Positions 18,711 to 35,948 of a stretch of DNA of 64,000 nt are shown here, in pieces. Origin of the DNA: Panorpa germanica (taxonomy: Eukaryota > Arthropoda > Insecta > Mecoptera > Panorpidae); NCBI GenBank assembly GCA_963678705.1, contig OY783209.1, positions 15,500,001 through 15,564,000 of the forward strand, in the 5' to 3' direction. The position numbers and the translations under genes were made by a program. Each line of letters opens with the position of its first letter. The first letter of the stretch is position 1. The notes under the pieces are model-generated. The model was not told the origin of the DNA, made no database searches, and saw only the letters and a list, made by a program, of their open reading frames with translations.

Positions 18711-20945
18711 TTTTTTTTAAAAAGTTAAGATTTGTAGCAACATTAGTGAAAAGACTGTCACACCGTGCAGATTTTATCGATTTTTTTAATTTTTAAAATA
18801 TTCAACTTTATATATTTTTCGGATAACTGTTATAACTTGGCCTATCTCCCACTTCCGGCTTGACGTCGATTTCTGGGACACCCTGTATAAGACAGTTAGA
18901 ACTCATATAATTTGTCAGAATTCGTTTCTCGTATTATGCATTCTCATACACCTCCAACGCCTGCACTAAATAGCTATTTAAGAAACAATTTCATATTATG
19001 AGTTCTAATGTAATTATATAACTCGATCTGTATATACGATAAGTATATCTACTTTTATCTATATTAGAACTTTGTTATCAACGCAGTGGTTATTTATTTC
19101 TCAAATATTAACCAAGAAAAGCATTAAATTTGACATAGTGTTGATAACAGCCAAAGGAATGTGATTTACTAAATTCTTTAAAATTCACGAAAATGTGACA
19201 CACATCTTATACTTACTATTATAATTTATATTTAATTAAAAAATAATAATAACATTAATTTCTAAGGAAAATTATTAATATTGCAGATATAATATCTGCT
19301 TTATTTACAGTTTACAAAAATTATAGTTACTATATATGTAGTTCACACAATTATAACCTATACTATTGTTGTAAGTACGCACAATATCGTACTTATCTTT
19401 TTATTTCTAATATAAATGTTATTTATTTTATAAGAATTGTATTATGTTAGCTTCAATTTTAATATTAAAATTGTAACAAATTATTATTTAAATTAAGCGC
19501 TTGTAAACATTGACGCTGGTCTGTGGACATTTTGTATTGTTTTAATCCTACGTAACTCTGAAGTGGTGTTATATGATGGTAATAAAAGCCAGCGGACGAG
19601 TGGTACAGCAGTGTGGTACTAGAGACAGAGTACCAGTTTGGTTCTAAACTCAGAAGTATCAGCAGCTCTCTGATAAGTGAGAACTGGTGTTCAATTGTTT
19701 TATTATATTTTGTTGAACACGTTTTGCTTTTAGTTAATTATTACACAAAGAAATTATATTAAGTTAAATATTTAGCATCCTTTCTAATTAAGTAAAATAC
19801 TACTGTAATTAAGTGTTTAGATGACTAAATAAAACTAATTGATTACTTATTTTAATAAAAAGTGTTATAATTAATAGTATAAAAAGATATTAATTCTTCG
19901 ACAAGGTACGTTGAATGCATGGCCATTTTAGCCGCTCGAAATAGTCTCTATTTCAACAATACTCTTCGAACAAGAAATCTATTAATCAACTTAAAAGAGC
20001 TTATTCTTATCCTGTGAATATTCTGTGATTATCTGGTGGATAATCGCCAACGGAAGAATCTACATTCAGAAGCTAGCAACCCGGCGGGATGTATTAGCCA
20101 AGCTGAGTAATCTCCTTCTAGAACGAGCAGCCGACCTCTTTTCACAACATTAATGACAGGTGTAACGTCCCGGCGATAATCTACCAATCTTATCACTACA
20201 CTATATATACTATATATTTCCTACATATATGTACTAATAAATTCAATATACAATATTAATCAATTGTGAATATAGATAAAAATACGTAAGTTAATTATTT
20301 ATATATATATATATAACAAAAATCACATCGTTAAATTTAAAAATACTTCGTTATTATTAAGTTTAGTCGTTTTTATATTGGGATGATGTTAAACGATATT
20401 GTATTATGCAACTTTGCTTTATAGACTTTTTATTCTGAACTAGGTATTTGTTTGCTTCGACATACATAAATGTAATAGATATATACAATGTTAATTTTTC
20501 GATACATTGAAGAAATAAACAAATATCCAGAATAATGATTTCGCACTGTATTTAACATACGCTATAATACCCATATAATATCTTTCAATATTTTTCAATA
20601 AAACAAGAAAAATGTGATAAAAGTCAAATCAAAAACACTATTTTGTGTTAAAAATGAAAGAAACGCTAGCAACATTTTTTCTCAATAGAAATAGATAACG
20701 AAGTTATGTTGATAAAATTGCTTTATTGAATAATTAAGAAATTATTATTACGTAACTAAACAACGAATAAAGTACATATCTGCCAACGTTCAGTAGAATG
20801 TCAAAACCATTATCAAATCTCATGGGTGATACCTTTGCGTTTGCATATATTTTATCAAGAAAGTCTAAATAAAATTTGAAAGAAATTTACTGTTTATATA
20901 CTTACGGTTGGTATTGTATTTATTCAATTCGTACCCATTGTAATA
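18711..20945. other. Mostly unassigned AT-rich DNA upstream of the zinc-finger gene
   Basis: No supported gene. At about 18855-18888 the text ends GGGACACCCTGTA, a common terminal-repeat end of insect Tc1/mariner elements (next to TA), but no matching left end was found. Around 19500-20180 the composition is less AT-rich, with AATAAA-like signals and a GGTGGATAATCGCC segment, which could be a decayed LTR-element leader; this is unproven. A short (AT)n run lies at 20300-20315. The last 150 bp, ending in ATTTTACAG at about 20948-20956, look like an intron end. Confidence 0.4.
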
Positions 20946-20956
20946 CTATTTTACAG

Positions 20957-21425
20957 TGAAAATGGAAAATACTGATGTCGATATAGAAGCAGACTTATTT
21001 TCTGACTCTAAGAATATCAATATTAAAAGAGAAAATGAAGTAATCTGGATCATATATGACGAAATCCATGTTAAAGCAGAAATTAAAGATGAAACAATAG
21101 TATCAGGAAGTCCGCAAGATGGACTATTTAATAACTGTATAACATATGAAGAGCCACGAATTCCAAAATATGTGTACTGCATGAGTACCTACATCTGCAT
21201 GAGTACCTACAAAGACATGGAGTTTTTGAATGAACATCTAGAAGCCTATCCTGATTGCAAACAATTTAGTAATGGGAATTGTAGTGTTAGTTGCAATAGT
21301 GTCTACAATAATGGCAGTAAAGTTGTCGAGCATCACCTAACTGGCCGAACTGTTGATAAACGTTTTACAGTCGCAAACTCTGGTGATGGCTATTGCGATT
21401 TTAAGCTGCCCGCCGTTGAATCGAC
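20957..21425 (+). pseudogene. C2H2 zinc-finger gene, N-terminal exon part (1 of 3)
   Basis: A splice acceptor (TTTTACAG) precedes the exon, and ATG at 20962 begins MENTDVDIEADLFSDSKN. The segment IHVKAEIKDE resembles the acidic N-terminal motif of insect zinc-finger transcription factors. No zinc-finger-associated domain is clear. The frame is open to 21425, where a gypsy LTR begins; read-through into the LTR adds only spurious residues. The coding sequence resumes in the same phase at 34187. Likely nuclear DNA-binding protein, identity unknown. This exon alone shows no break, but the gene as a whole is disrupted. Confidence 0.7.
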
Positions 21426-22859
21426 TGTAACCCTACCCCTTATATCTACTTCTATATATTGTGGTAGTTACTTATTTTATGAGAGCGATTCTACAATCCT
21501 CTCAAACGAGGGTCCTTTTAAGTGATCTGATTCACCTTGAGTCGGATGACCTGAGCTAATTGTGGATGTCTTATTTATCTATCAGGACTTAGTACTTCTT
21601 CTAATAATATTACATAAATATATTAGGTTTTACTTACTTTGTGTTCTCTGCAGGCTGCTTTCTCTGCTTTGAACAATCACTTTATTTTAACGCGACGCGA
21701 CCGTTAACTCTAAGTACTTTACAATTAAAACAATGTATTCATTTACACTTATTTTCTTCATTATTCAATCAATTATTTAATACAATTCTTAAATAATTCT
21801 TTTAGTAACTTTATAATCTTTATATTGGGGCGATTTGGCGACTGACTTAAACCGAACGACCGACTGACTGATCTGAATGGAATGATCTGATGGACTGATC
21901 CAGGAATCCCCTTTCTTTGGGGTTTATATAGCTTAAAAAGTCTTTGTTTGAATATGTGATCTCATTTGAACTCTAGCCATGTTTATCTTAAATCCAAATG
22001 CCATTTCGTCATCACTTCTCTGGATTTTGTATTTGGTTCTACTATAAACATTATTTGAAACTTTACGTGCTTATGAACAAAGGAAGTTAATTAATATTTC
22101 TTTTAAAAGTTATTATAAATACTACATCGTCAGTTTTGAATATAATAATAATATGCGTCTTTGTTATTGATAAAGCAATACTTAATCTAAATAATGAGCC
22201 CGACAGTTAGGCGACTTAAGGTAGTTGTATCGTGATAGTCATGCTCAAAAGTATAACTCAGCAACCTAAAATTATAATGTAGCTGAAACGTTAGTGTCAA
22301 ATATTCTCGTTAAAAACTTTTGTGAAAGTACAGTCTCACTGTTCTCACTACATGTAAATAGTATCTACACGTATATTCAGACATACAGTACACGTATACT
22401 CAGACACGTATATTCAGACATTTTCAATGTTTACAAAATTTTATTTCTGTAATGGCGTGGACAATAATTTCCATTTTTTTTTATGTGATTAATAACTACT
22501 GTTTCTATAATATATTAAATATTGAATTCCTTTGAATCGTTTTTATTTTATTCGATAAAAATAACATTGAAATTACTATTTCCCATAAGAGCCTGTGTTA
22601 AAATAATAAAACTTTAATATCGCTTTTCTCAATAATGGAGTGGTAAATTTTAATCGACCTGAGGTCAATATGTCTTATAATTAATTAAAGAGCAATTAAA
22701 TGAAGTTTTATTAAAATCCTTTGAAAAGTCATTCCACGATACAACTACCTTAAACTATTAAAAATCTACGTTTTAGTTTATATATGAATCTTTACACTGG
22801 TTCTTAAATAGTTAGTAATAATATATCAATAATTAATGAATCTATATGGGACCGTTACA
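21426..22859 (-). repeat. 3' LTR of the macro-domain gypsy, enlarged by an insertion
   Basis: Starts TGTAACCCTACCCCTTATAT on the plus strand and ends GGGACCGTTACA. Aligns with 33283-34182 except for 534 bp at 22220-22753 (insertion plus duplicated TTAA). Confidence 0.9.
22220..22749. mobile_element. 530-bp TTAA-flanked MITE
   Basis: Perfect 15-bp inverted ends GGTAGTTGTATCGTG (22220-22234) and CACGATACAACTACC (22735-22749). TTAA duplication at 22216-22219 and 22750-22753. The partner LTR has a single TTAA and no insert at the same position (GCGACTTAAACTATT), which is direct evidence of insertion. TTAA targeting fits piggyBac or Kolobok elements; there is no coding capacity. Confidence 0.88.
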
Positions 22860-22873
22860 TTGCTCCCCGTTTT
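22860..22873 (-). other. Polypurine tract of the macro-domain gypsy
   Basis: On the minus strand AAAACGGGGAGCAA lies directly before the 3' LTR, as needed to prime plus-strand DNA synthesis. Confidence 0.65.
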
Positions 22874-23026
22874 TAAATTAAAATCTATAATCCAATGATT
22901 ATAATTTTATTAGCCTTTCCCGTATTTTTAGATTCATTCATAATTGAAACCTTAATAAAATAAATGTAATTTAAAATTTAAATCAATAAATCAATCATAT
23001 ATAGTCGTTGATAATTAAAATAATTC

Positions 23027-23341
23027 GTGTAAGGAAAGTGTAGCAAGCGAAAGGAATATTGGCCAGCTAATAAAGGGAGGCAGTAAAGGAAAGAGGTGGA
23101 TGATGAAAATAGTAAGAAGGAAAGGAAAAACAGGAGAATAAATAAGCTGGTGGAGAATAATAGAGAGGGACAAAAGAAGAAGAAGCAGAAAGCACTTTTG
23201 GAAGTAGTAAAAGTCGAGAAGATTTTAAGTTTATTTTAAGTTTAGTTTTAAGTTTGGAATGTATATAGGAATGAAATGTATTAGAATTATAATACTGTAG
23301 ATTGTAAAGCCGAAAGGCATACACAATTAATATATAAATAA
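23027..23341 (+). mobile_element. 5'-truncated LINE (or SINE-like) 3' end
   Basis: Purine-rich fragment ending TAAAGCCGAAAGGCATACAC, then a TAAATAAA-type tail. Flanked by a 14-bp target duplication AATTAAAATAATTC at 23013-23026 and 23342-23355. The AGCCGAAAGGC hairpin before an A-rich tail is typical of insect non-LTR 3' ends. No coding sequence remains. Confidence 0.75.
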
Positions 23342-23355
23342 AATTAAAATAATTC

Positions 23356-25359
23356 TTCTTTATCTGCTTTGTTCTCATAATTCAATATGCGACCAACTTT
23401 GATAAATAATTATCATTTCATTTTATCATTATCATTTCAATATGCGACCAACTTTGATAAATAATTGAATACTTTTCTTCGTTTCGAATACGCTCTGCCT
23501 CGGTTGATGTTTTCGAATGCGTCCTTGTCCTACTGCTTTCGACTTTGCATTTGGTTTCATATATCGTAGGTCGTATAAACAATACTGATAGTTTTTAATG
23601 CTCCATAACATTTGTAAATTCTTGTTCTGTTTACAATACTTGTAGTTTACTACACACATGATATATGTTTTCTTCTTAAGTGATTACTGCTTCACTTAGA
23701 CCCTTAATTTCTTCTGGATTATTACGGACTTCGTCATTTTGTATTGTTTTTCTTCATCTTTCAATTTGCATCGATTTCCTCGGAATCTTCATCTAACTAA
23801 CGGATTGCATTCTGGTAGTTTCTCTCATTCATTCGATCATTGGCTTGTTCAAGTATTCACACTCATTACCTTAGTCTTACGCATTATGAAAATCAACTAC
23901 TTGTCTCATCCTTGAGTTCCTTGTTGTTGTAAATGCTGCAATTTGTAAGGCTACGAATAGGTACAAATTCGTAATTATCTTAATTATAAATTCATTTTCT
24001 GTCTTTTTTCTATAATTTCTTACAATTGACATAACAAATTTGGCTCTTGTATAGCTCTTTTACTAATAATTCGATTAACTTTACTTAGAAGTTATAGTCA
24101 TTACAAAATATAAATTTATTTCATAACATATCTTAATTTCTAGTTATTTTAATTGTATTTTAAACGTAACATGTAAATATCTTACGGCATGTGTTTTCTT
24201 TTTTAAATTTCATCAATCTCTTCGAATTTAATCTTATTACCTTTTTTCATTGATTGTTGTATATATGTTTTCCTATTTTGCAATATTTATGCCATAAATT
24301 ATTAACACATCTCTTACAAACTACTGTTAATTCTACAAAATAATGAAATTTAATGTAAACATATTTTTCTTTAATTAACATACAAATTGAACTTTTCTCT
24401 TAAATTTAGAATTAATATCCCAAACTTTAGTTTATACTTTTATTAACGAATATTTTAATGAACTTATTCTTATTTACTGTATTTTTTCATTTAACAAATT
24501 TATTATATTTATTTTTTCCAAATCAAAACATTATTCTAAACATGGTTATATCAAAAATTATTCTTAAATCTATTTATTATTTTTAACAACAAAATCTGAA
24601 CTCGATGGATGTATCTACTCAAATAATATAATCAAGGTAAACATAATTATTAAACTTCAACACTTGTTACTTGAATTCAAAACAACTTTTTATATTCGCA
24701 TGTAGTTTTATATACATGTGTTTCACAAAATAAAATTTCTTTTTCTCTATGTTGTACTATATCTCAATGTAAATTAACATTACAAGTGTTCAAATTTTCA
24801 ATGAATACCTCTTATCAGTTTTCAAATCTTCTTCTTTCCTTATTAAAGTTTCCAAAACAATCAGTGAACAGAAAAACATTTTAATTTATTCAATATTTAT
24901 GATATAAAATCTTCAATTAAGTCATCTCATTCTGTTTGCTGCATTCATCATGTATCTTGTCATCTGAAATTATATAGCATTAGTATATTTCAATAAAAAC
25001 ATAAAAATAATTATTCTTTAAAAGTTATTGTTACTCATGTTTCGTACATCTGTAACTTCTGGTCTAGTTTGTTTATTAAGTACCCTTATCTAATTTATGT
25101 TCTCAAACCCTATGTTAAAAATCAAATTTATGCTCACTTATATACTCAAGTGTTAATTTCTTCTATGACCTTTCTGACTCGAATTTCAATACATCTGTTT
25201 CAAATAACTTTAGTCCCTAATTATATGTTTATTTTCTTAACACATGACCTTTCTGTTTTTATGTTTCTTTTACTCGTAAAATAATAAAGTGCAATATTGG
25301 TTCCTTTTTCAAATTGACCTTAACTAATTTATATCCTATTAAAACTCTGACAGTTATAA
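23356..25359. other. 3' non-coding part of the gypsy, no recognisable gene
   Basis: About 2 kb of T-rich sequence between integrase and the 3' LTR. A 30-nt segment starting TCAATATGCGACCAACTTTG occurs twice, at about 23382 and 23437. Short minus-strand frames (for example 23432-23659) have no recognisable domain. It could hide a decayed third gene such as env, but I see no signal peptide, furin site or anchor. Confidence 0.35.
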
Positions 25360-26154
25360 TCCTATATTATAATGTTCCAACTGTATGTTTATATTCTTAT
25401 GATCTTATGTTCTTATATGTTTGGTACTGAATTTTGTATGGCAGCGCGAAAACGGCTCCATCAATGTTTTTAAAAATTTCCTATTTCGTAGAGAAAAAAA
25501 TTCTAAGACTTTTGGCGTCCCCGGATTTTTCCCTGAATTTCCTGGAAACCCGTAATTTTGGAAAAACTGGAAAAAAAGTGAACCCTTTTTTGCTGTATTA
25601 CTTTTAATTCGTAAAAGATAGAAAGTTGAAATTTTGCATGTGTATTAAGGTATTCAATGCTGACATTTCTCAAAAATTAGAAATTCAAGAAGTGAAAAAG
25701 GGGGGGTTGAAGAAATTCGGGGGCCCGGTAGGGAACTTTGAAGAAAGTTCATATTCTGGATTCTAGAATAATTAAGTATATTATTAATAAAAAAAAATTC
25801 AAAATTTTATTGGGGGGCACGGGGGCAGTATTTGTAAAGTTTAGTTTTGATCAGTATCAGTTTCTTTAAATTTTGTATATAGGCCTTGGTAACTTATTTA
25901 CGAATCGAAAAAAAAATCACAAATTTTGAAAAAAAGTTGTCCAAATATCGCATAAATTCAAAATATTTTTTATTTTGATATAAAAAATGTATTTTCTTAG
26001 TCAATTTGTATGAAAAATTAATTGTTATTAAATTTAAAATCAATATAGGACGAGTTTATTTATTACTTAAATTTAAAAATGGAATTAAATTTTAACATGA
26101 AATTCAAGCCACTCATAAAAAACAAACGTCGCTTGCGACGGGGGTAAAAGCTAG
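25360..26154 (+). mobile_element. Helitron 3' end (non-autonomous or truncated)
   Basis: Ends with the hairpin CGTCGCTTGCGACG (26127-26140), a short spacer and CTAG (26151-26154) followed by T, the hallmark of a Helitron 3' terminus. Blocks in it (TTATAATGTTCC, TTCGTAGAGAAAAAAA, GACTTTTGGCGTC, a GGGGGCACGGG stretch) recur in the same order on the minus strand at 54.2-55.1 kb next to a Helitron helicase. Its 5' end (TC) was not located. It lies just beyond the integrase stop of the gypsy. Confidence 0.7.
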
Positions 26155-26158
26155 TTAG

Positions 26159-29125
26159 TTATATTCTACTATTCGATATCCACGGTTGTTTTGGTGCAAC
26201 GCATCGGCTGCGCAAAGAGTTACTATGCCCAATTGTATCTTCAACTGGATTTTCTATCTCAATATCAATATTCTCTATATTGTCATTATTATCAATATTC
26301 GTGTCTATCTCGATTATTTCTTCTATCTCATCAGATATATCATTATTCGTATCACTAGTATAACCAAAATTACAACATAAATTACCGAAACCTGTATTTA
26401 GATTCGTGCCATTTGCTTCATCTTCAGATTCACTTTCTGAATGAACTTCATTATTTCCTAAAAACACTTCAGCTGTATTACCTTTAAATTTCTTGAGGCG
26501 ATTAACATGCACTCGTTCTTCTCGTTTTCCATAAATTTCCTTTATTAAAAAATTTACTTCGCTGGTTCTATCAATAATTCTATAAGGACCTCGCCATACT
26601 TTTCCAAGTTTTCTACTTAATCCCGGTGTGTGCGTCATATGTTTCAATAGCACATGATCACCTATTTTAAATTTGACCGGTTCCGACTTTTTATTATATT
26701 GTGTAGCTTGTCTATCTTTTGCGGTTTCTAACCTTTCTGTACATAACTTAAAAGCATGCTTTAATCTTAAAATTAATTCGGCGGCATAATTATCATCGAG
26801 GTCGTATCTAACTCTTTCAGGTTTTAATACTTCACCATATGGTAATACCATATCACGACCATGCATTAGAAAAAATGGTGTTTCTTGTGTCGAACTATGT
26901 ATAGCTGCATTGTATGCCATGACAGCGTAGTTTAAGCAGGAATCCCAATTCCTTTGATCAGAATCCACGAAATGTGACAAATAGTCTTTTAATATACGAT
27001 GACAACGTTCTAAACTTCCGTTTGTCGAAGGAGAATACGCTGATGTTGAAAGTTGCGTAATGTCTAGTCTTTTACAAACGTTTCTAAATAATTCGGACAA
27101 AAAGTTAGTTCCTCTGTCTGTCAATAAAGCTTTAGGAGTACCATAACGTGCTATGACTTGTTCACAAAATACCTTTGCTAATGTTTCTGCAGACTGATCA
27201 GGTATTGCAAACGCTTGCAAGTATTTTGAGAGTGCACATTGAACTGTTAAAATGTACTTCATTCCTGAATTACTGAGTACTAACGGTCCTACAATATCTA
27301 GTGAAATTCTTTCAAATGGATAAGTGAGTGGTTATAATTTCTGTAACGGTGCTCGTTTTAAATGAGGTGAAGTTTTTCTCATTTGACAGCTTAAACATTC
27401 TTCACAGTATCTTTTTATGTCTTGTCTCATTGCTGGCCATACAAAATATTTCTTTATTATCTGTAGTGTCCCTTTAAATGCCCTATGCTCTGCTGAAGGC
27501 GTATTGTGAAACATATACAATATATTCGGTACCATTCGTGTTGGTGCTACTACACAGTCATTTCTATCTGTTTTTTCATTACTTTTCTTATACAGTATAC
27601 CCCTGTCATCTAAATAATAATCATTTTTCTCCCCATACTTAGTTTGTGTTATTAATTGTTTAATATGGGAATCACTAGCTTGTTCATTTTTAATTTGACA
27701 CCAATCCCAATATGGAACTTCTTCAGCTGCTACGGCTGCAATACTTTCTGTTTCTATTCTACTAAATGCATCGACATTACCGTGTTTTACCCCTGGTCTA
27801 TAAATAATTTCAAAATCGTAATCTGCTAAAGTTAAAGCCCACTGTGCTAATCTACTCTTCATTGGATTTTTCATAGTCATTAACCAACTTAATGATCGGT
27901 GATCTGTTTGGATCTTAAATTTCTTACCATATAAATACGTAGGAAAATGTGATAAACTCCATAAAATCGCTAAACATTCCCTTTCTGTGGTTGAGTAATT
28001 TTTCTCACATTTATTTAATTTACGAGAAGCGTATGCGACAGGACGTTCTACTCCATCCTGAACTTGACTTAGGATTGCGCCTAATGCGATTCCTGATGCA
28101 TCTGTACCTAATATAAATTCTTGACTAAAATCTGGGTAAGCTAAGACTGGCTCAGAACATAACGCGTTTTTTAATGCTTCAAAACTTTTCTCTTGTTTAG
28201 GTCCCCAAATAAATGTCTCATTTTTGCAAGTTAGTTTTGTTAGGCTTGACGATAATTTTGAAAAATTCTTTATAAATCGTCTATAAAATGAAGCTAACCC
28301 TATAAAAGATCGGATTTGTTTAACTGTTTTCGGACGCGGATAGTTTCTAATTACTTCTGTTTTTTCTGGATCTGCCTTTACACCATCACTAGAAATAATA
28401 TGACCAAGATATTGCGTTTCTTTATTCATAAATTCACATTTGCTAGGCTTCAATGTCAACCTTGTTTCTCTCAAGCGATCGAAAACCTCTTTAATTCTCT
28501 GGATATGCGAATCTACATCATCGTTACTAAATATAATAATATCATCTAGGTAAACTAAACAATGTACTCCGGTTAAACCTGCTAACACTGCATACATAAG
28601 TCTCTGAAATGTAGCAGGAGCTGATACTAACCCAAACGGCATAACATTAAATTGAAGGTGTAAATCAGGTGTTGAAAATGCTGTTAATTCTTTAGATTTT
28701 TCGTCCATTTCAATTTGCCAAAATCCGGATGCTAAATCTAATTTGGTAAATAAACTTGCTTTGCCTAATTTATCAAGAGTGTCTACTAAGTGTGGTAATG
28801 GAAAGTAATCTCTTTTTGTTATTGCGTTAAGACCTCTGTAATCTATGCAAACTCTAACCTTGTTTTCCCCATTTGCTGCTTTCTTATTTACAAGAACAAC
28901 ATTACTGGACCACGGTGACATTGATGGTTCTACTATGCCATCTTCAAGCATTTGATCTATCTGTTCTCTCAGTACTTGTAACTGCGCGTGTGGAACTCTA
29001 TATGGTTGTTTAGTTATAGGAGGAACATCTTGAATTATTATCTTATGTTTAACTATCGAGGTAGTTTTCAATTCTTGACCCTCTGTTAAGAATATGTCGC
29101 GATATTCGTAAATTAGATATTCCAT
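26159..29125 (-). pseudogene. pol: Gypsy Pol: reverse transcriptase, RNase H, integrase; one stop
   Basis: One minus-strand frame of about 988 codons, broken only by a TAA at 27332-27334. Domains in order: reverse transcriptase (GLVSAPATFQRLMYAVL, then YLDDIIIF with the catalytic Asp pair); RNase H (FILGTDASGIALGAILSQ, YSTTERECLAILWSL, IQTDHRSLSWL); integrase zinc finger (HNTPSAEHRAF ... CEECLSCQ); then after the stop the integrase core (SLDIVGPL, LLTDRGTNF, TNGSLERCHRI giving D, D, E); and a GPY motif (VWRGPYRIIDR). These copy element RNA into DNA and insert it. The stop falls between zinc finger and core. The frame continues upstream into spacer and macro domain without a shift. Confidence 0.92.
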
Positions 29126-29230
29126 TTTACTTTGGTCTCTAGCACTTAGATGATTTAACTTTATTTTACTAAAAAGTTCCGTTATTCTCTGTGTTTTATT
29201 TATCTCTTCATTCTTATGACTTCCTTGCTT

Positions 29231-29893
29231 CTACTGATTTGTAACTTCATGTATAATTTTATCTTCTTTAGCTGTTAAATTATTATAACCTCTTTCATCA
29301 AATAATTGTATATTTTCAATCATTGTGTTTGCTTCTGCTGATCGTACAACACCAATTAAAATATTTTTATTACGTTGTCGGATGTGTTCTCTTAATAATT
29401 TAACTGTTTTAGTATATTCGTTATCATATGGCTCTATTATACCTATCTTAGTATTTATTGGTATATTTATATTCTTCTGCGTAACATTGGTTATTCTACA
29501 TATTAACCTGCCCTTACATATTGAATTTACACTTCTTGCTACTAATACTCCATCTACGGTCAATTCTGGGTTAAATATACCATGACCTTCCTTAATGTCT
29601 TTTTGAAATGCATGAACATTTATTGTACATCGGGGCGGAAGCGTTAATTGCTCTAATAACCTAACACTATACCGATTAGTACTACACGTTTGTGCGTCTG
29701 TTCGCTTTCGAGTGGTTTCAGGTATCTTACTCATATTTATGTTTATTTTTTCAACTCGCTCAGCTGTGTTTATTCTTTTTAACCACTTTGTTTGTAAATT
29801 CTTTCCTTTCTTTACCTGTTCTTGGGCTTTAATATTCTTTCCGTCAATGTAACCTTTTAAATCATTATCATTTTTATTTATTAAACAGTTCAC
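29231..29893 (-). pseudogene. Spacer domain between macro domain and reverse transcriptase
   Basis: In the same frame as reverse transcriptase, separated by a TAG at 29231-29233 and a TAA at 29945-29947. The first half is basic and rich in Lys/Asn. The second half has RLLEQLTLPPRCTINVHAF, GVLVARSVNSICKGRLICRI and NINIPINTKIGIIEP, the beta-rich 'PPR...VARS...R..N.....I..GT.IG' pattern that precedes reverse transcriptase in many gypsy elements. Its function is unknown; it has been treated as a protease-derived or dUTPase-like barrel, which I cannot confirm here. Confidence 0.65.
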
Positions 29894-29917
29894 ATACCAT
29901 TTTTCGTCTTTTTCCGA

Positions 29918-30346
29918 TTCGCCATCATAGAATGCTATCTTTATTTAGCATTCAGAAAATATATATTCAATCATTTTACTCACTATTTTAAAATCTAATT
30001 TATCTAGCCCACATGCTATGTATGGTAATGCAATAAATTTCTTTTTATTTTCTAACATATGATCCCTTAATTTAATTATTGACGAATATAAATCTGCGTT
30101 GAGAGGTTTCTCGTTACTCCTCTTTTTTGTTACTAAATAATATATAAAACGATTTTCATCTTTTAATATAGCTAATCCACCCTTTTTCTGTTTCTGTTTC
30201 AAAAGCTGCTCAACTCTACCAAATCTTTCTTTAAATTCAACTGCTATTCCTTGTGACATACGTAAATCTGAGGCTACACAATGACCCAATGCATACTTGC
30301 TAGATGCATTAAACAAATCTCCCTTATTAAAATTTATTTTACACAA
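29918..30346 (-). pseudogene. Macro domain, OARD1/TARG1-like ADP-ribosyl hydrolase, inside gypsy pol
   Basis: About 140 residues read INFNKGDLFNASSKYALGHC at the start, then RMSQGIAVEFKERFG, GGLAILKDENRFIYYLVTKK and IALPYIACGLDKLDF. This is the order of the OARD1/TARG1/Poa1 macro-domain group, which removes ADP-ribose from proteins or processes ADP-ribose-1''-phosphate. The Lys of TKKR and the Asp of CGLDKL sit where the TARG1 catalytic Lys and Asp sit (family knowledge, from memory). It is nearly complete: a TAA at 29945-29947 cuts only the last strand (IKIAFYDGE follows in frame). It lies immediately after the protease/pol frame change and before the spacer, like the dUTPases captured by some retroviruses. 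Inferred role: countering ADP-ribosylation in the host cell. Confidence 0.85.
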
Positions 30347-30513
30347 CGTCTCTATCGTTGGAAATCTACTAATTTTCCATTTTAGAAAATCATCAAAACT
30401 TCTATAATTGTGCCCTATCTTATCACTTCGCTGATTATTTATTTCTCTTTTTACGTCAATATTTTCCGATTCAGTACAACCTATATTTCTATCTTTTCTA
30501 TTCTTTTCTACGA

Positions 30514-30520
30514 TTTTCCC
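30514..30520 (-). promoter_or_regulatory. Candidate -1 frameshift site, protease to pol
   Basis: Minus-strand heptamer G GGA AAA, in phase with the protease codons, one codon before the protease stop TAG. Slipping back one base enters the pol frame (macro domain), which is open only after a TAA about 20 nt upstream, so the heptamer lies in the short overlap where a shift must occur. No strong downstream stem was visible. Confidence 0.6.
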
Positions 30521-31025
30521 TGACTTTGCGTATTATATATACGCTTTTGCTTTCTAATGATACCATTTACATTTTCTCTAATCATATTATTTATATTTAA
30601 GTTATCTCTCTGAAAATCATGTACAGTATTACGATTAATGTCGTAAATACCGTTTCTATATATTAAAATACCTTTTCCAAAATCTACAATTATCCCAAAT
30701 TTACGAAGAAAGTCTAACCCAATTATCCCTGTCCAATTTTGCATATTTTCTACAATTTCAAAATGAAAAGTCACATTATTCCCAAATAAATCTAACTTTA
30801 ATTTGCTTTTACCAAATGTATGTATTTTATTATTTTGTGCATCTCGCAAAATATTTTGCGATTCTGTAATTTTTTCTGTTTTTAAACATTCTCTAGTTAG
30901 TAGGCTGGCGCCTGCACCACTATCTATAAGAACGTTGCAATTTTGACCATTAATTACTAAATTAAGAAACCATTGATTATCATGAAATGCCGGTACATAC
31001 AGAGGTGTAAGATTACCCTTTTTAC

Positions 31026-32142
31026 TTATTGAATGGCTTCTACGTCTCGGGTAGTGAGTGAAGCCATCAATCCGTTTAAATTATCCTCATAATTATTGGA
31101 CGCGCGTAAATTTCTTTCTTCAACTTCGCTTGGCTTATTTTCGATGCTGCGAATATTTCTATTACTTTGGAAAGTAACTTGTCGCTGATTTCTCGCAGGA
31201 CTACGGCTATCATTATACTCTTGCAGGACTCTAACTCTCCCTAATCGGTCATTACTTTGATTACGGTTTTCATACCTATTTGAACTGCGATTTCTTTGAA
31301 ATCGATGTCTTACGTCCCTTATCTCCCGTTGAGGACGACTACGACAATCTCTCTGAAAATGTCCTACTCTGTTACAATTATAACACCTTGCTCCATCTCT
31401 TTGCCTATTATTTAACCTTCGGCTTTGTGAACCGCTACGCGAGTTGCTAGGTCGCATAGACGATTGATTATTTTGAGATGTGCGATTTATATAATAGTGG
31501 TCGGTTCTGTTTATTCGGTTTGTACCCCCTGTAGCAATCTCTGCTACGTAGCCTTGCTTCGATGAGATTAAATCATCGGTTTCTACCCTTTCCGCAATTT
31601 CAACGGCATTATTAAAACTCTTGCGATCCGCGGCCCAAATAAACTTAGAATATCTCGGCGATATCCCTTCTTTAAACCTTTTTAAAACGACTACTTGCAA
31701 CTCAACTGTAAGCTTCTTTGCTCTTTATCAATTGCTTCTGGTACACATTTGACCCTAATGCCCATAACCTTTGTGGAAATTCATAAACAATCTCGCCATG
31801 TCTTTGTTTACAACCCCCGAACTCAATTTCTGCTTGTCTCAGAGCAGATGGCCCTTTTCTGCTATATCTAGACAATAATGCATTACGAATACTCATATAA
31901 CTACGGTTCTCGCTTTGAACCTCCGAATTAGACAAAAGATATTCAGCTACATCAGGCGACACTTTCGCAAATACGGTAACTGATTGCACCTTGTCGGTCT
32001 AATCCAACAATTCTGCCATTTGATCCACCGCATTTAAAAATGTTGCTATGCTACCTGTACCGTCAAAGAATGGTATATAATTTAATCCTTTTAATTTAGG
32101 AATTTCTGGGGCAATATCTACGTTTGTTTCATTAGCCGTCAT
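31026..32142 (-). pseudogene. gag: Gypsy Gag, one stop and one frameshift
   Basis: ATG at 32140-32142 begins MTANETNVDIAPEIPKLKGL. A TAG follows at codon 50, after which the same frame continues (VTVFAKVSPDVAEYLLSN, RQAEIEFGGCKQRHGE), the capsid-like core of arthropod gypsy Gag. Near 31700 the frame changes by one base and continues to TAA at 31026-31028. That part has a basic, Arg/Asn-rich nucleocapsid with one zinc knuckle, CYNCNRVGHFQRDC. Gag assembles the particle. The two breaks are probably mutations; the frame change at the end (into protease) is probably programmed. Confidence 0.85.
31074..31080 (-). promoter_or_regulatory. Candidate -1 frameshift site, gag to protease
   Basis: Minus-strand heptamer T TTA AAC is in phase with the gag codons (AAT TTA AAC). 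Six nt after it, ATGGCTTC pairs with GAAGCCAT further down, extended by ATTG/CAAT across a one-base bulge, making a stem-loop of about 12 bp. Shifting -1 here opens the protease frame with no stop. Slippery heptamer, 6-nt spacer and stem are the standard layout of programmed -1 frameshifting. Confidence 0.75.
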
Positions 32143-33263
32143 TTTAACTATTTGGAATAAACTTTCAATCAAAATAAAAACCTTTAGTAAGCTTCAATAA
32201 ACTACTACAAATATTTTAAAATCTTGGACGTTAAAAGAAAGAGAGAAAAAAAAAACAAATCTATTTTTAAAAGTAAACAATACCTTACACGGCCTTAGTT
32301 ATTTTAACAAAACTGTACTCTTGTGATTTACTTTTTGAAACGAAATGGAACGTCTAGTTGTTTATATACATAAAAATAAACAAACAAATTATTTTTAAGT
32401 AGGTCAAAGAAAATGCTTGTGTATTTAATATAGACTGAGTTAGAACAATAAAAACTCAAATAAAAATTATAACAAACAATATTTATGACAAAAGTATATT
32501 AACGAATTGTAAATTGATAAAATTATTTTTAATTATTAGTTAAATAAAATAAAATAAACTATTTTATGTAATACTCAATATTTTCTCATATGAACTAAAA
32601 CAAATTCAAAGTAATTTCAAATAAGTTGTGCTACAAATTTTTTCATCGTTCCAATCACTTAATAAAATTACGATAAAACAAAACTATTTATTTGTTAATT
32701 CCTGTTAGAATAACTCTACACTTTATACTTTATAAAAACGTGCCACTTTACTTGTGAATTACAAAAACTATTTAAAAAAAATATCAATATTTATGTACAG
32801 TTAAAATAAAAATATTCAACTTTAACAAGTTATGGTTTAGAAAAATTATCTACTGTTTAGTTCCTTAAATTTATTCCCTTTTACAAACTTAAAATACCCC
32901 GTTCTTTGATTGTTTAAATTTCCCCTTTCTTTAATTATGCTGATATCTTTTCTTTTTCTAATTATTAATATGCAGTTGCTAGTTGCAATTAATAACCTAT
33001 ATTTCTTTTTCCCAGTTTATCCTTTTTTCTAAATTATTCAAATTTATCCTTTTTTTACCAATTTATCTTTTTCCCAGTTACTAAGATTTCCCTTTATTTT
33101 CAAAAATTAAATTTTCCACTTAATGCTCTTTTTTCCAATTAATCAAATTTCTGCCCTTTACCAACCTTTATAAAAACATCCCACAATTTTAAATATCTCT
33201 CTTTTTAAAACATATCCCACAATTTTTAATACCCCTTTTTAACGTATCTCCTTTTTAACACAT
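32143..33263 (-). other. Gypsy 5' leader, non-coding
   Basis: About 1.1 kb between primer site and gag start. The part nearest the primer site is purine-rich on the minus strand, with loosely repeated GTGGGAT and AAAAAGG blocks (32870-33260). It probably contains packaging signals. No gene is seen. Confidence 0.5.
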
Positions 33264-33279
33264 CCCACTTCTGACACCA
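33264..33279 (-). other. Primer-binding site, tRNA-Leu type
   Basis: Minus strand TGGTGTCAGAAGTGGG, three bases inside the 5' LTR. It is complementary to the 3' end of tRNA-Leu (CCCACTTCTGACACCA), tRNA sequence from memory. Confidence 0.75.
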
Positions 33280-33282
33280 AAA

Positions 33283-34182
33283 TGTAACCCTACCCCTTAT
33301 ATCTACTTCTATATATGGTGGTAGTTACTTATTTTATGAGAGCGATTCTACAATCCTCTTAAACGAGGGTCCTTTTAAGTGATCTGATTCACCTTGAGTC
33401 GGATGACCTGAGCTAATTGTGGATGTCTTATTTATCTATCAGGACTTAGTACTTCTTCTAATAATATTACATAAATATATTAGGTTTTACTTACTTTGTG
33501 TTCTCTGCAGGCTGCTTTCTCTGCTTTGAACAATCACTTTATTTTAACGCGACGCGACTGTTAACTCTAAGTACTTTACAATTAAAACAATGTATTCATT
33601 TACACATATTTTCTTTATTATTTAATCAATTATTTAATACAATTCTTAAATAATTCTTTTAGTAACTTTATAATCTTTATATTGAGGCGATTTGGCGACT
33701 GACTTAAACCGAACGACCGACTGACTGATCTGGATGGAATGATCTGATAGACTGATCCAGGAATCCCCTTTCTTTGGGGTTTATATAGCTTAAAAAGTCT
33801 TTGTTTGAATATGTGATCTCATTTGAACTCTAGCTATGTTTATCTTAAATCCAAATGCCATTTCGTCATCACTTCTCTGGATTTTGTATTTGGTTCTAGT
33901 ATAAACATTATTTGAAACTTTACGTGCTTATGAACAAAGGAAGTTAATTAATATTTCTTTTAAAAGTTATTATAAATACTACATCGTCAGTTTTGAATAT
34001 AATAATAATATGCGTCTTGCTTATTGATAAAGCAATACTTAATCTAAATAATGAGCCCGACAGTTAGGCGACTTAAACTATTAAAAATCTACGTTTTAGT
34101 TTATATATGAACCTTTACACTGGTTCTTAAATAGTTAGTAATAATATATCAATAATTAATGAATCTATATGGGACTGTTACA
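33283..34182 (-). repeat. 5' LTR of the macro-domain gypsy
   Basis: 900 bp, TGTAACCC...CTGTTACA on the plus strand, pairing with 21426-22859. CGAC follows at 34183-34186. Confidence 0.9.
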
Positions 34183-34186
34183 CGAC

Positions 34187-34315
34187 TAATATGAGATATA
34201 ATATTGAATCTGCCTTAGCAAAGAAACATCATATTTGCGACATTTGTGACAAGTCTTTTACTCAGAAGGGTAGCTCATTTATTCATAAACAAAAGCATAC
34301 GGGTATTAAGCCTTA
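34187..34315 (+). pseudogene. C2H2 zinc-finger gene, middle part (2 of 3)
   Basis: Continues the exon cut at 21425. With one CGAC removed, the phase is kept through the junction. It encodes the first zinc finger (CDICDKSFTQKGSSFIHKQK then H) and the linker HTGIKP. It is cut at 34315 by the I-type LINE and resumes at 40080. C2H2 fingers bind DNA; linker HTGxKPY is the canonical inter-finger spacer. Confidence 0.8.
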
Positions 34316-34520
34316 CAGTTTACATCGAGTCTTCTTGGTGAGCGCACGTATTTACAATAAACAAAACAATAAAATAAATAGTGATCTTTTTTTTTTGCAA
34401 ATTATAATATTTTTTTTTCGTGATTTATTTTCTTTTTAAATTATAATTTATATTATTATTAAGTGTTATTAATTAGAAGTGAAGTAACTTCTATTTAATT
34501 ATCACTGGTTAATTAACAAT

Positions 34521-35948
34521 ATGGATATGGAGGTTGAACCTCCCGATAAAAATCCGATCAATAAAAACAACTCTGTGACTAACAAATCAATTCCTACAGA
34601 TAAAACATCCAGTGATATAACAGAAAACTTAAATAACAATAGTGACAATGTTAAAAAAATATTTAATAATTTATACAATACAGAAACAAAATATGACTCG
34701 TATAAAGTAATGATAGTTAAAAATAATAGTGATGGAAATACATTTTTTAGTTCTCTTAAATTAGCAGAAATAATATGTAAAATTAGCAATAAATCTAATA
34801 TAATAGAAATTAAAAAAGTGGGAAGAAATAGAGTAATCGTTCAATGTGCTAATGCAGTACTAGCTAACGAAATTACCAAATCAACATTGCTGAAAAACAA
34901 TGGGTATGAAGCGTTTATCCCATTTTACTGGTGCACAAAAGTTGCTATTATAAAAGGTGTTGATATTGAATATTCGGAAGATACAATTTTAAATAATATA
35001 GAGTGTCCACCTTTTAAAGTAACGAGAGTGCAAAGGTTAAATCGAAAACTAAGAGTTGACGGAGCTATTAAATATGAACCCAGTACAACAGTGAAATTAT
35101 TCTTTGAAGGACTTGCTATTCCTGCTTATGTTTACATGTGGAGAGTGAGACGAGCATGTGAACCATTTGTACAACAGACGATACAATGTTATAATTGTTT
35201 TAAATTTGGACATGCAGCCACAAAATGTAGAGCAAAAGTAGCAAAATGTAAATTCTGCGGAAGTGAAGATCATTTACGTACTGCATGCACATCTCCTAAT
35301 CCGACATGCATAAATTGTAAACTTAACCACGAGGCTACAGACAATGAATGTCCTGAAAAAAAAAGACAAATCAAGATAAAAGATCTCATGGCCCAACACA
35401 ATCTCAGTTTTTATGAAGCAAAATTAGAATTAACAGAAAAAAATACAGACTATTTATACTCAGTAAGAACTCAAAACTCTTTTGAAGCTCTAAACTACAA
35501 TGAGACTTTTCCCAATATCACTAATAAATACAATAGTATCAACATAATTCCAACATACAAACCAAACCCTTTAACCAGAAGAACTAATACCAGAGTGAAT
35601 AAATCAAATACAGGTAACTCGTTACAAAGATCTTACAGTCAACCACAACCTACGACATCCACTAAAGAACCAATTCCAAAAAGAAGAAGAGAAGAAAAGA
35701 AACCTAACAATGAAGAAAGCGACACATACCTTAAGATAACTAATCAAGGAAAAAACAGAAAGCAAATCAACCAAGAGACACCTGATATTACAATGGAAAA
35801 CAATGACAATGATACCTGCTATACATCAATATATAATAAAAATAATGATGACAAAATTAAAAATACAAACAAAGACCCAAATATTACATCCCAATCCCTT
35901 AGAAGCTACAAGAAACAAATATCTAGTGTACAATGGCCAAACTCGTAA
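34521..35948 (+). CDS. I-type LINE ORF1 protein (zinc-knuckle RNA chaperone)
   Basis: 475 codons from ATG at 34521 to TAA at 35946-35948, uninterrupted. The N-terminal 70 residues are Asn/Asp-rich and likely disordered. The middle (about 70-210) forms an alpha/beta region of the kind seen before zinc knuckles in I/jockey ORF1 proteins. Three CCHC-like knuckles lie at about 220-275: CYNCFKFGHAATKC, CKFCGSEDHLRTAC and CINCKLNHEATDNEC. The C-terminal third is basic and low in complexity (KRRREEKKPNNEE). It binds LINE RNA and forms the RNP with ORF2 protein. Start supported by the position just after the 5' untranslated region and by the LINE 5' end 205 bp upstream. Confidence 0.9.
   Translation: MDMEVEPPDKNPINKNNSVTNKSIPTDKTSSDITENLNNNSDNVKKIFNNLYNTETKYDSYKVMIVKNNSDGNTFFSSLKLAEIICKISNKSNIIEIKKVGRNRVIVQCANAVLANEITKSTLLKNNGYEAFIPFYWCTKVAIIKGVDIEYSEDTILNNIECPPFKVTRVQRLNRKLRVDGAIKYEPSTTVKLFFEGLAIPAYVYMWRVRRACEPFVQQTIQCYNCFKFGHAATKCRAKVAKCKFCGSEDHLRTACTSPNPTCINCKLNHEATDNECPEKKRQIKIKDLMAQHNLSFYEAKLELTEKNTDYLYSVRTQNSFEALNYNETFPNITNKYNSINIIPTYKPNPLTRRTNTRVNKSNTGNSLQRSYSQPQPTTSTKEPIPKRRREEKKPNNEESDTYLKITNQGKNRKQINQETPDITMENNDNDTCYTSIYNKNNDDKIKNTNKDPNITSQSLRSYKKQISSVQWPNS

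Follow-up and report, generated by a model that had tools for sequence, protein, structure and literature searches.

Several families of Ty3/gypsy retrotransposons of the mecopteran Panorpa germanica carry, inside Pol, an OARD1/TARG1-like macro domain. The element considered here lies on the minus strand of a 64,000-nucleotide stretch of DNA (assembly GCA_963678705.1, contig OY783209.1, positions 15,500,001 to 15,564,000; hereafter the window), and its macro domain stands between protease and reverse transcriptase (RT). As read from sequence, the domain itself, its place in open pol frames and its presence in numerous copies that fall into six families (A to F, a grouping by identity that is our own) are firm. 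That this Pol-built, TARG1/OARD1-like domain serves the active families as a hydrolase, a "clean-up" enzyme, is the reading that we favor, with a probability of roughly 0.6.

The domain of the window copy occupies an open reading frame (ORF) of 195 amino acids plus stop (29945..30532, minus strand). Residues 65-193 of this ORF (29954-30340) align over 129 amino acids with human OARD1/TARG1 (4j5r) among the sequences of the Protein Data Bank (PDB), at E=6.1e-34. A preliminary description of the window had placed a macro domain of this kind between protease and RT, and the match bears it out, on the minus strand; of the motifs that it named, GDLF, RM..GIA, TKK (given there as TKKR) and CGLDKL are all found in the ORF. 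Its range, 29918..30346, covers the macro part but overshoots the in-frame stop at 29945-29947 by 27 bases. The frame that it held to be common to the domain, RT and integrase is indeed shared, but in the window copy it is interrupted by stops at 29945, 29231 and 27332. A profile match, which it had also looked to, is weak: the sequence match to OARD1 is strong, but the window domain reaches 16.9 bits with Pfam Macro, a model whose cut-off is 22. The sole NCBIfam match, confined to the macro part of the window and family B domains, is to DarG (NF048014; 7.6e-7 and 2.7e-15, respectively), with scores far below that model's whole-protein cut-off of 250 bits. The resemblance to OARD1 is not a property of this region of pol at large, because nothing in the PDB matches the neighboring linker segment of copy L034 at an E below 0.11.

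A search of the genome (464 Mb) yields 579 candidate macro places, of which 150 were scored; the counts that follow refer to these 150, and further genome listings likewise cover about 150 scored matches each. Eight of the scored rows are family A copies that are 92-94% identical to the window domain and carry it in an open frame of 1636-1638 amino acids, with protease, macro domain, linker, RT, RNase H and integrase. The domain is thus built into pol, as the preliminary description had maintained against a chance host fragment, and open copies keep it. In L034, the one of these copies that was examined piecewise, protease, macro, RT, RNase H, H2C2 and rve follow one another in that order. Eight open copies (L032-L039) have a single gag ORF of 373-380 amino acids that overlaps pol in a different frame. 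A private insertion in the window copy is ruled out, dozens of genome copies carrying the macro domain. Three family A copies (G000 C7:181349, C108:10115 and C5:12244823) share an identical tally of RT stops, four TGA and one TAG, as though they descended from a single damaged subfamily that was amplified.

Family B accounts for 18 of the scored rows. Its domain is 42-44% identical to that of the window, its frame is exactly 1389 amino acids long, and the domain lies between RNase H and integrase (before H2C2 on L041), a position that disposes of the notion that the macro domain is always to be found between protease and RT. Pairs of long terminal repeats (LTRs) were found in all 11 family B loci that were fetched (some pairs being cut by locus ends). 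Since the pairs are 100% identical in seven of the 11, family B must have moved recently; by this measure it is a recently active family with its domain open. Family C (L052) has it between protease and RT, as in A, and its RT is 57% identical to that of A. In D, E and F (L053-L055), of which the macro-to-integrase stretch was read, it lies just upstream of integrase and in one frame with it; what precedes the macro is, in F, the tail of RNase H by eye and, in D, an RT match about 670 bp away. The domain passes almost directly into the integrase zinc domain in D and F. In B an extra stretch intervenes, with a weak match (34 residues, E=0.002) to an element designated H. The open frames that carry the domain are 1526 (C), 1392 (E) and 1652 (F) amino acids long. 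A database protein, P0040, presents yet another order, its macro domain coming after the integrase core and the p58 C-terminal domain. Matches of the other families to OARD1 range from B (1.6e-43) through E (9e-18) and C (4e-15) to F (5e-14) among PDB sequences, and D is 35% identical to a piece of human OARD1 by BLASTP (E=2e-20). The Pfam Macro scores are 22.1 bits for B (21.1 for another B copy), 17.8 for A, 17.0 for D and 16.9 for C; E and F give no match.

Element H (L125, L126), a near relation whose RT is 59.5% identical to that of family A over 210 residues, has no macro domain at the protease-RT or the RNase H-integrase junction, the two places read. Because H does without it at both, the domain is not essential to this type of pol. 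The linker regions of A, C and H (window 29231-29944; L034, L052 and L125) have in common, by eye, a motif block of beta-rich appearance. Tandem macro matches occur on G000 C98, C189, C121 and C5:16555176-16568347, spaced by about 4.8-5.1 kb in family A (C98) and by 6361 bp in family B (C5), as if an LTR were shared.

In the accessible text of PMC6397177, Lys84 of TARG1 is the nucleophile and Asp125 resolves the intermediate, and the pattern of the enzyme is given as TKx(30,35)Px[IL]GxGxD. The strict pattern is found in the human protein, in families B and D and in 24 of 24 related proteins regarded as host-type (19 from named insects and five that lack an organism name). Family A (the window) and P0040 depart from it at the first Gly of GxG alone (Ala in A); because one Gly of the published pattern is replaced, the family A domain is, by its residues, TARG1-like, not TARG1. 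Families C, E and F do not fit the pattern. By eye, E keeps the TK and the Asp and has lost the glycines of the GxG loop, C is without the Lys and the Asp, and F is without the Asp. Judged by the pattern, A, B, D and P0040 accordingly have equivalents of Lys84 and Asp125, as does E by eye; in C and F the enzyme is, to judge by these positions, degenerated. Among 30 family A copies, which were picked by best macro match and are therefore biased to conserved macros, TKK is kept in all and the Asp of GLDKL in 29.

Selection on the domain was gauged by counting single-base codon changes, with no tree used, in 10 family B copies, in the eight open family A copies and in the 30-copy family A set. 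The family B macro has 21 synonymous and 16 nonsynonymous distinct changes, for a nonsynonymous-to-synonymous ratio (N/S) of 0.23 (p=1.2e-5). The other parts of the same pol stand at 0.22 (integrase), 0.15 (RT), 0.16 (RNase H) and 0.43 (protease), and these counts point clearly to purifying selection on the family B macro, with a constraint like that on integrase. The family A macro, with five synonymous and 10 nonsynonymous changes in eight copies, yields N/S 0.52 (p=0.18). In the same copies the core parts are at 0.11 (protease), 0.16 (RT), 0.08 (RNase H) and 0.07 (integrase), and the linker, at 0.74, is the highest among the parts counted; a pairwise count gives 0.52 for the macro, 0.60 for the linker, 0.12 for protease, 0.13 for RT, 0.05 for RNase H and 0.03 for integrase. 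Macro and linker of family A thus evolve faster than the core enzymes, and the constraint on the macro would be weak or relaxed, or its evolution fast; purifying selection is here unproven. In the 30 macro-selected copies, many of them broken, the ratios obtained from variants shared among copies are 0.34 (macro), 0.33 (protease), 0.58 (linker) and 0.56 (a part of RT that contains frame noise).

The closest macro domains found are those of insect proteins, with identities of 55% for B (to Gryllus) and 54% for A (to Leptinotarsa); insect relatives among P0008-P0041 come from Gryllus, Blattella, Schistocerca, Tribolium, Leptinotarsa and others. The scan covered 17 of the 24 host-type proteins and shows no element domains in them at E 0.001; the other seven are entries that lack a precomputed Pfam domain. 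Among 20 database proteins scanned with Pfam, element domains occur in P0040 alone. To judge from these relationships, the most probable source of the elements' macro domain is a host macro gene of insect type. No host macro exon is found among the scored genome matches, a list filled by elements. Behind their first macro domain P0008 and P0041 have, by eye, a second macro-like domain; for this latter domain of the insect protein the genome offers a single match (G000 C19:724405-724821, 33%).

Trees bear on how often the domain was captured. A tree of 18 macros puts A and C together (support 94/89) and has all element macros on one side of a branch at 41/78; a tree of 39 macros has them on one side at 75/62. 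In the latter, a branch with support of 94/94 sets human OARD1 and P0001-P0004 apart; the element macros stand opposite, with insect proteins, P0005 and P0007. The placement of C, D, E and F in this tree is unsure. A and C are apart in the best tree, and forcing them together is not rejected (approximately unbiased test, p=0.34). P0040 clusters with D and E (97/84), the D-E pairing being flagged as long branches meeting. Forcing D and F together is disfavored in the 18-macro set (p=0.045), and forcing B, D, E and F together in the 39-macro set gives p=0.056. The integrase tree (midpoint root) unites A and C (95/92), then B (93/99), then F, D and E. Given this integrase tree, and since the domain precedes RT in A and C but follows it in the remaining families, it has moved within pol or has been captured more than once. 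A is 48% and B 51-54% identical to human OARD1, versus 42-44% for A to B; that both are closer to the human protein than to each other would fit separate captures. These relationships are compatible with one capture followed by moves and also with several captures. Two further sets of relatives may be recorded: P0003, in which PF10686 and PF02481 (precomputed), which we take to be YAcAr- and DprA-type, lie ahead of an OARD1-like macro domain, and 69 viral-contig loci of IMG/VR (L056-L124) that encode OARD1-like macro relatives at 25-37% identity.

Where the preliminary description looked ahead to trees, to selection and to related copies, the outcome is divided. The element macros do fall with insect proteins and apart from human OARD1, but their own grouping reaches 75/62 only; selection across copies is evident in family B and not significant in family A; and dozens of copies retain the segment, but H lacks it at two places. 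It was silent about the domain elsewhere in pol, about degenerate forms (C, F and partly E) and about the absence in H at the places read.

In the active families the macro domain is a predicted mono-ADP-ribosyl hydrolase that would be delivered inside the virus-like particle and would stay with RT and integrase within Pol. Its targets could be the ADP-ribose that host PARPs place on Glu or Asp of Gag and Pol, or on phosphorylated ends or gaps of the complementary DNA (cDNA); stripping it off during reverse transcription and integration would make the domain a clean-up enzyme carried in Pol. In the available parts of the respective papers, 5'-phosphorylated ends activate PARP2, an enzyme that modifies DNA (PMC8190142), and TARG1 is suggested to take part in undoing the ADP-ribosylation of DNA (PMC9967889). 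The considerations that weigh against the clean-up enzyme are of several kinds: the link to PARPs would be one of analogy; catalytic residues are lost in C and F, and the GxG glycines in E; family B alone reaches the Pfam Macro cut-off; H is without the domain at both places read; and the family A macro does not depart significantly from neutrality in its eight open copies.

Some of these same observations would suit a domain that reads ADP-ribose rather than erasing it, tethering the particle or integrase to ADP-ribosylated chromatin or repair sites, or one that is simply a structural spacer in Pol. On that view C, E and F, which keep the domain but have lost catalytic residues, would not have decayed at all, and these families do hold a full-length domain in open frames without the full catalytic signature; in D and F, moreover, next to nothing separates the domain from the integrase zinc domain, whereas an extra stretch stands there in B and H. 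However, A, B, D, E and P0040 retain both Lys and Asp, and a mere spacer does not need a constraint equal to that on integrase, such as family B exhibits. We consider a reader or spacer rather unlikely, and a tolerated passenger, a host exon captured once, long ago, and carried along in slow decay, more doubtful still. An N/S of 0.52, not significantly below 1, in family A, the degenerate state of C and F, and H with no domain at the places read are what one might see of a passenger, but the family B ratio of 0.23 (p=1.2e-5) is not, nor are a TKK that is present in all 30 family A copies of the macro-selected set and an Asp that is present in 29 of them, nor a domain that is open in several pol architectures. 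Needless to say, the window copy, broken and with its protease in another frame, might by itself have raised the suspicion of chance similarity, of a host gene fragment beside an element or of an assembly artefact. Dozens of dispersed copies in open pol frames and the OARD1 match at E=6e-34 rule out chance similarity and a host fragment, and leave this whole class of explanations a negligible share of the probability.

The element domain may be set beside several known systems. Human OARD1/TARG1 resembles the element domain in the 129-residue alignment, in the positions of the TK Lys and the GLD Asp and, for B and D, in the strict pattern; it differs in being a free-standing host enzyme as opposed to a domain inside Pol, and A has an Ala for its first Gly, with fewer signature residues in C, E and F. 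The insect macro proteins come closer in identity and have the strict TARG1 pattern, but those scanned lack element domains, and P0008 and P0041 have the additional macro-like domain. DarG, a DNA ADP-ribosyl glycohydrolase, matches the macro part of the window and B domains; unlike them it is a bacterial antitoxin, and the element scores are far below its model's cut-off. Retroviral dUTPase is a host-type enzyme built into Pol at a position that varies by lineage; it is a different enzyme, which acts on nucleotides, but the proposed clean-up enzyme would follow a similar logic. Reverse-transcribing elements with a macro domain have been described in fish: the accessible part of PMC4977317 attributes to Basta et al. 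(2009) epsilon-like endogenous retroviruses of teleosts with macro ORFs. These fish retroviruses are a precedent for the macro domain in Ty3/gypsy pol, although, as that account has it, they carry it in additional ORFs as opposed to inside pol. The macro domain of alphavirus nsP3 binds ADP-ribose and strips it from host proteins, according to the text available of PMC7468284; it belongs to a non-structural protein of an RNA virus, and the likeness meant here is in its described action. No report of a macro domain in Ty3/gypsy pol is found among the matches listed from the open-access literature, subscription journals and repeat libraries lying outside that compass, and the term "macro" does not occur in the available portions of PMC12992720 and PMC12062965.

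The element in the window extends from 34182 down to 21426 on the minus strand, as delimited by its LTR pair and target site duplication. The 5' LTR (33283..34182) is 900 bp long and has TG...CA ends, by inspection and by comparison with the 3' LTR (21426..22859), which is split by an insertion of ~530 bp at about 22220-22748; the two are 98.4% identical over 794 bp (13 differences) and 98.2% over 111 bp (two differences). A 4-bp duplication, CGAC on the plus strand, flanks the element (34183..34186, with its partner at 21422-21425). Such 900-bp TG...CA repeats and a duplication in the 4-6 bp range are those of a Ty3/Gypsy element (Metaviridae), as are a gag that precedes pol and bears a CCHC knuckle and the order protease-RT-RNase H-integrase, which is seen in the pieces of the window copy and in L034, L041 and L052. 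Just inside the 5' LTR, inspection finds a stretch like a primer binding site (33262..33279, minus strand), presumably for tRNA-Leu. The other features, all likewise on the minus strand, begin with a broken gag (31026..32193, from ORFs) whose zinc knuckle lies within 31026-31724 (zf-CCHC, E=3.8e-6) and an aspartic protease (30508..31080; Pfam gag-asp_proteas 1e-6, RVP 3.5e-5). The macro ORF is followed by the linker to RT (29231..29944), which is bounded by in-frame stops and matches no Pfam family at E 0.1. RT core (28394..28885; RVT_1, E=3.7e-38) and RNase H (27818..28207; RT_RNaseH 2.6e-40, RT_RNaseH_2 1.1e-38) come next, and then integrase with its H2C2 zinc domain (27368..27544; Pfam 3.6e-17), core (rve, 27029..27319; Pfam 1.3e-11) and p58 C-terminal domain (26489..26590; Pfam 3e-8). 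The linker and the RT-RNase H-integrase segments (27332-29230 and 26159-27331) are in the frame of the macro ORF, and the protease is in a different one; this difference and the three in-frame stops make the window copy a dead one. Behind pol, where an insect errantivirus would have its env (22860-26158 in the window copy), the longest ORF on the element's strand is 104 amino acids long. In family B locus L046, pol ends about 45 bp short of the 3' LTR, and there is therefore no env there.

The surroundings of the window copy have features of their own. The element sits in a plus-strand ORF with a C2H2-like zinc-finger motif, whose flanks (20944-21425 and 34187-34439) continue in one frame once the empty site of the element is restored. 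Nearby (34488-35948, plus strand), a 486-amino-acid ORF with CCHC-like knuckles resembles, by eye, the first ORF of a non-LTR element.

Enzymes built into Pol reveal which host chemistry limits a retroelement. For active gypsy families that carry a TARG1-like eraser, the limit so indicated is ADP-ribose on proteins or DNA. A wider conjecture, which we offer as a speculation with the odds well against it, is that ADP-ribosylation is a standing barrier to insect LTR retroelements (probably at cDNA ends or integration gaps), and that gypsy elements acquired a host TARG1-like eraser on several independent occasions and at distinct positions in Pol (between protease and RT, between RNase H and the stretch that precedes the zinc domain, directly before the zinc domain, and behind integrase), with catalysis later lost as the pressure changed. 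If this were true, other gypsy lineages might harbor degenerate macros, unnoticed, between their RNase H and integrase. The families at hand lend themselves to a natural comparison: the signature is complete in B and D, altered at one Gly in A and degenerate in C, E and F, and H lacks the domain at the places read.
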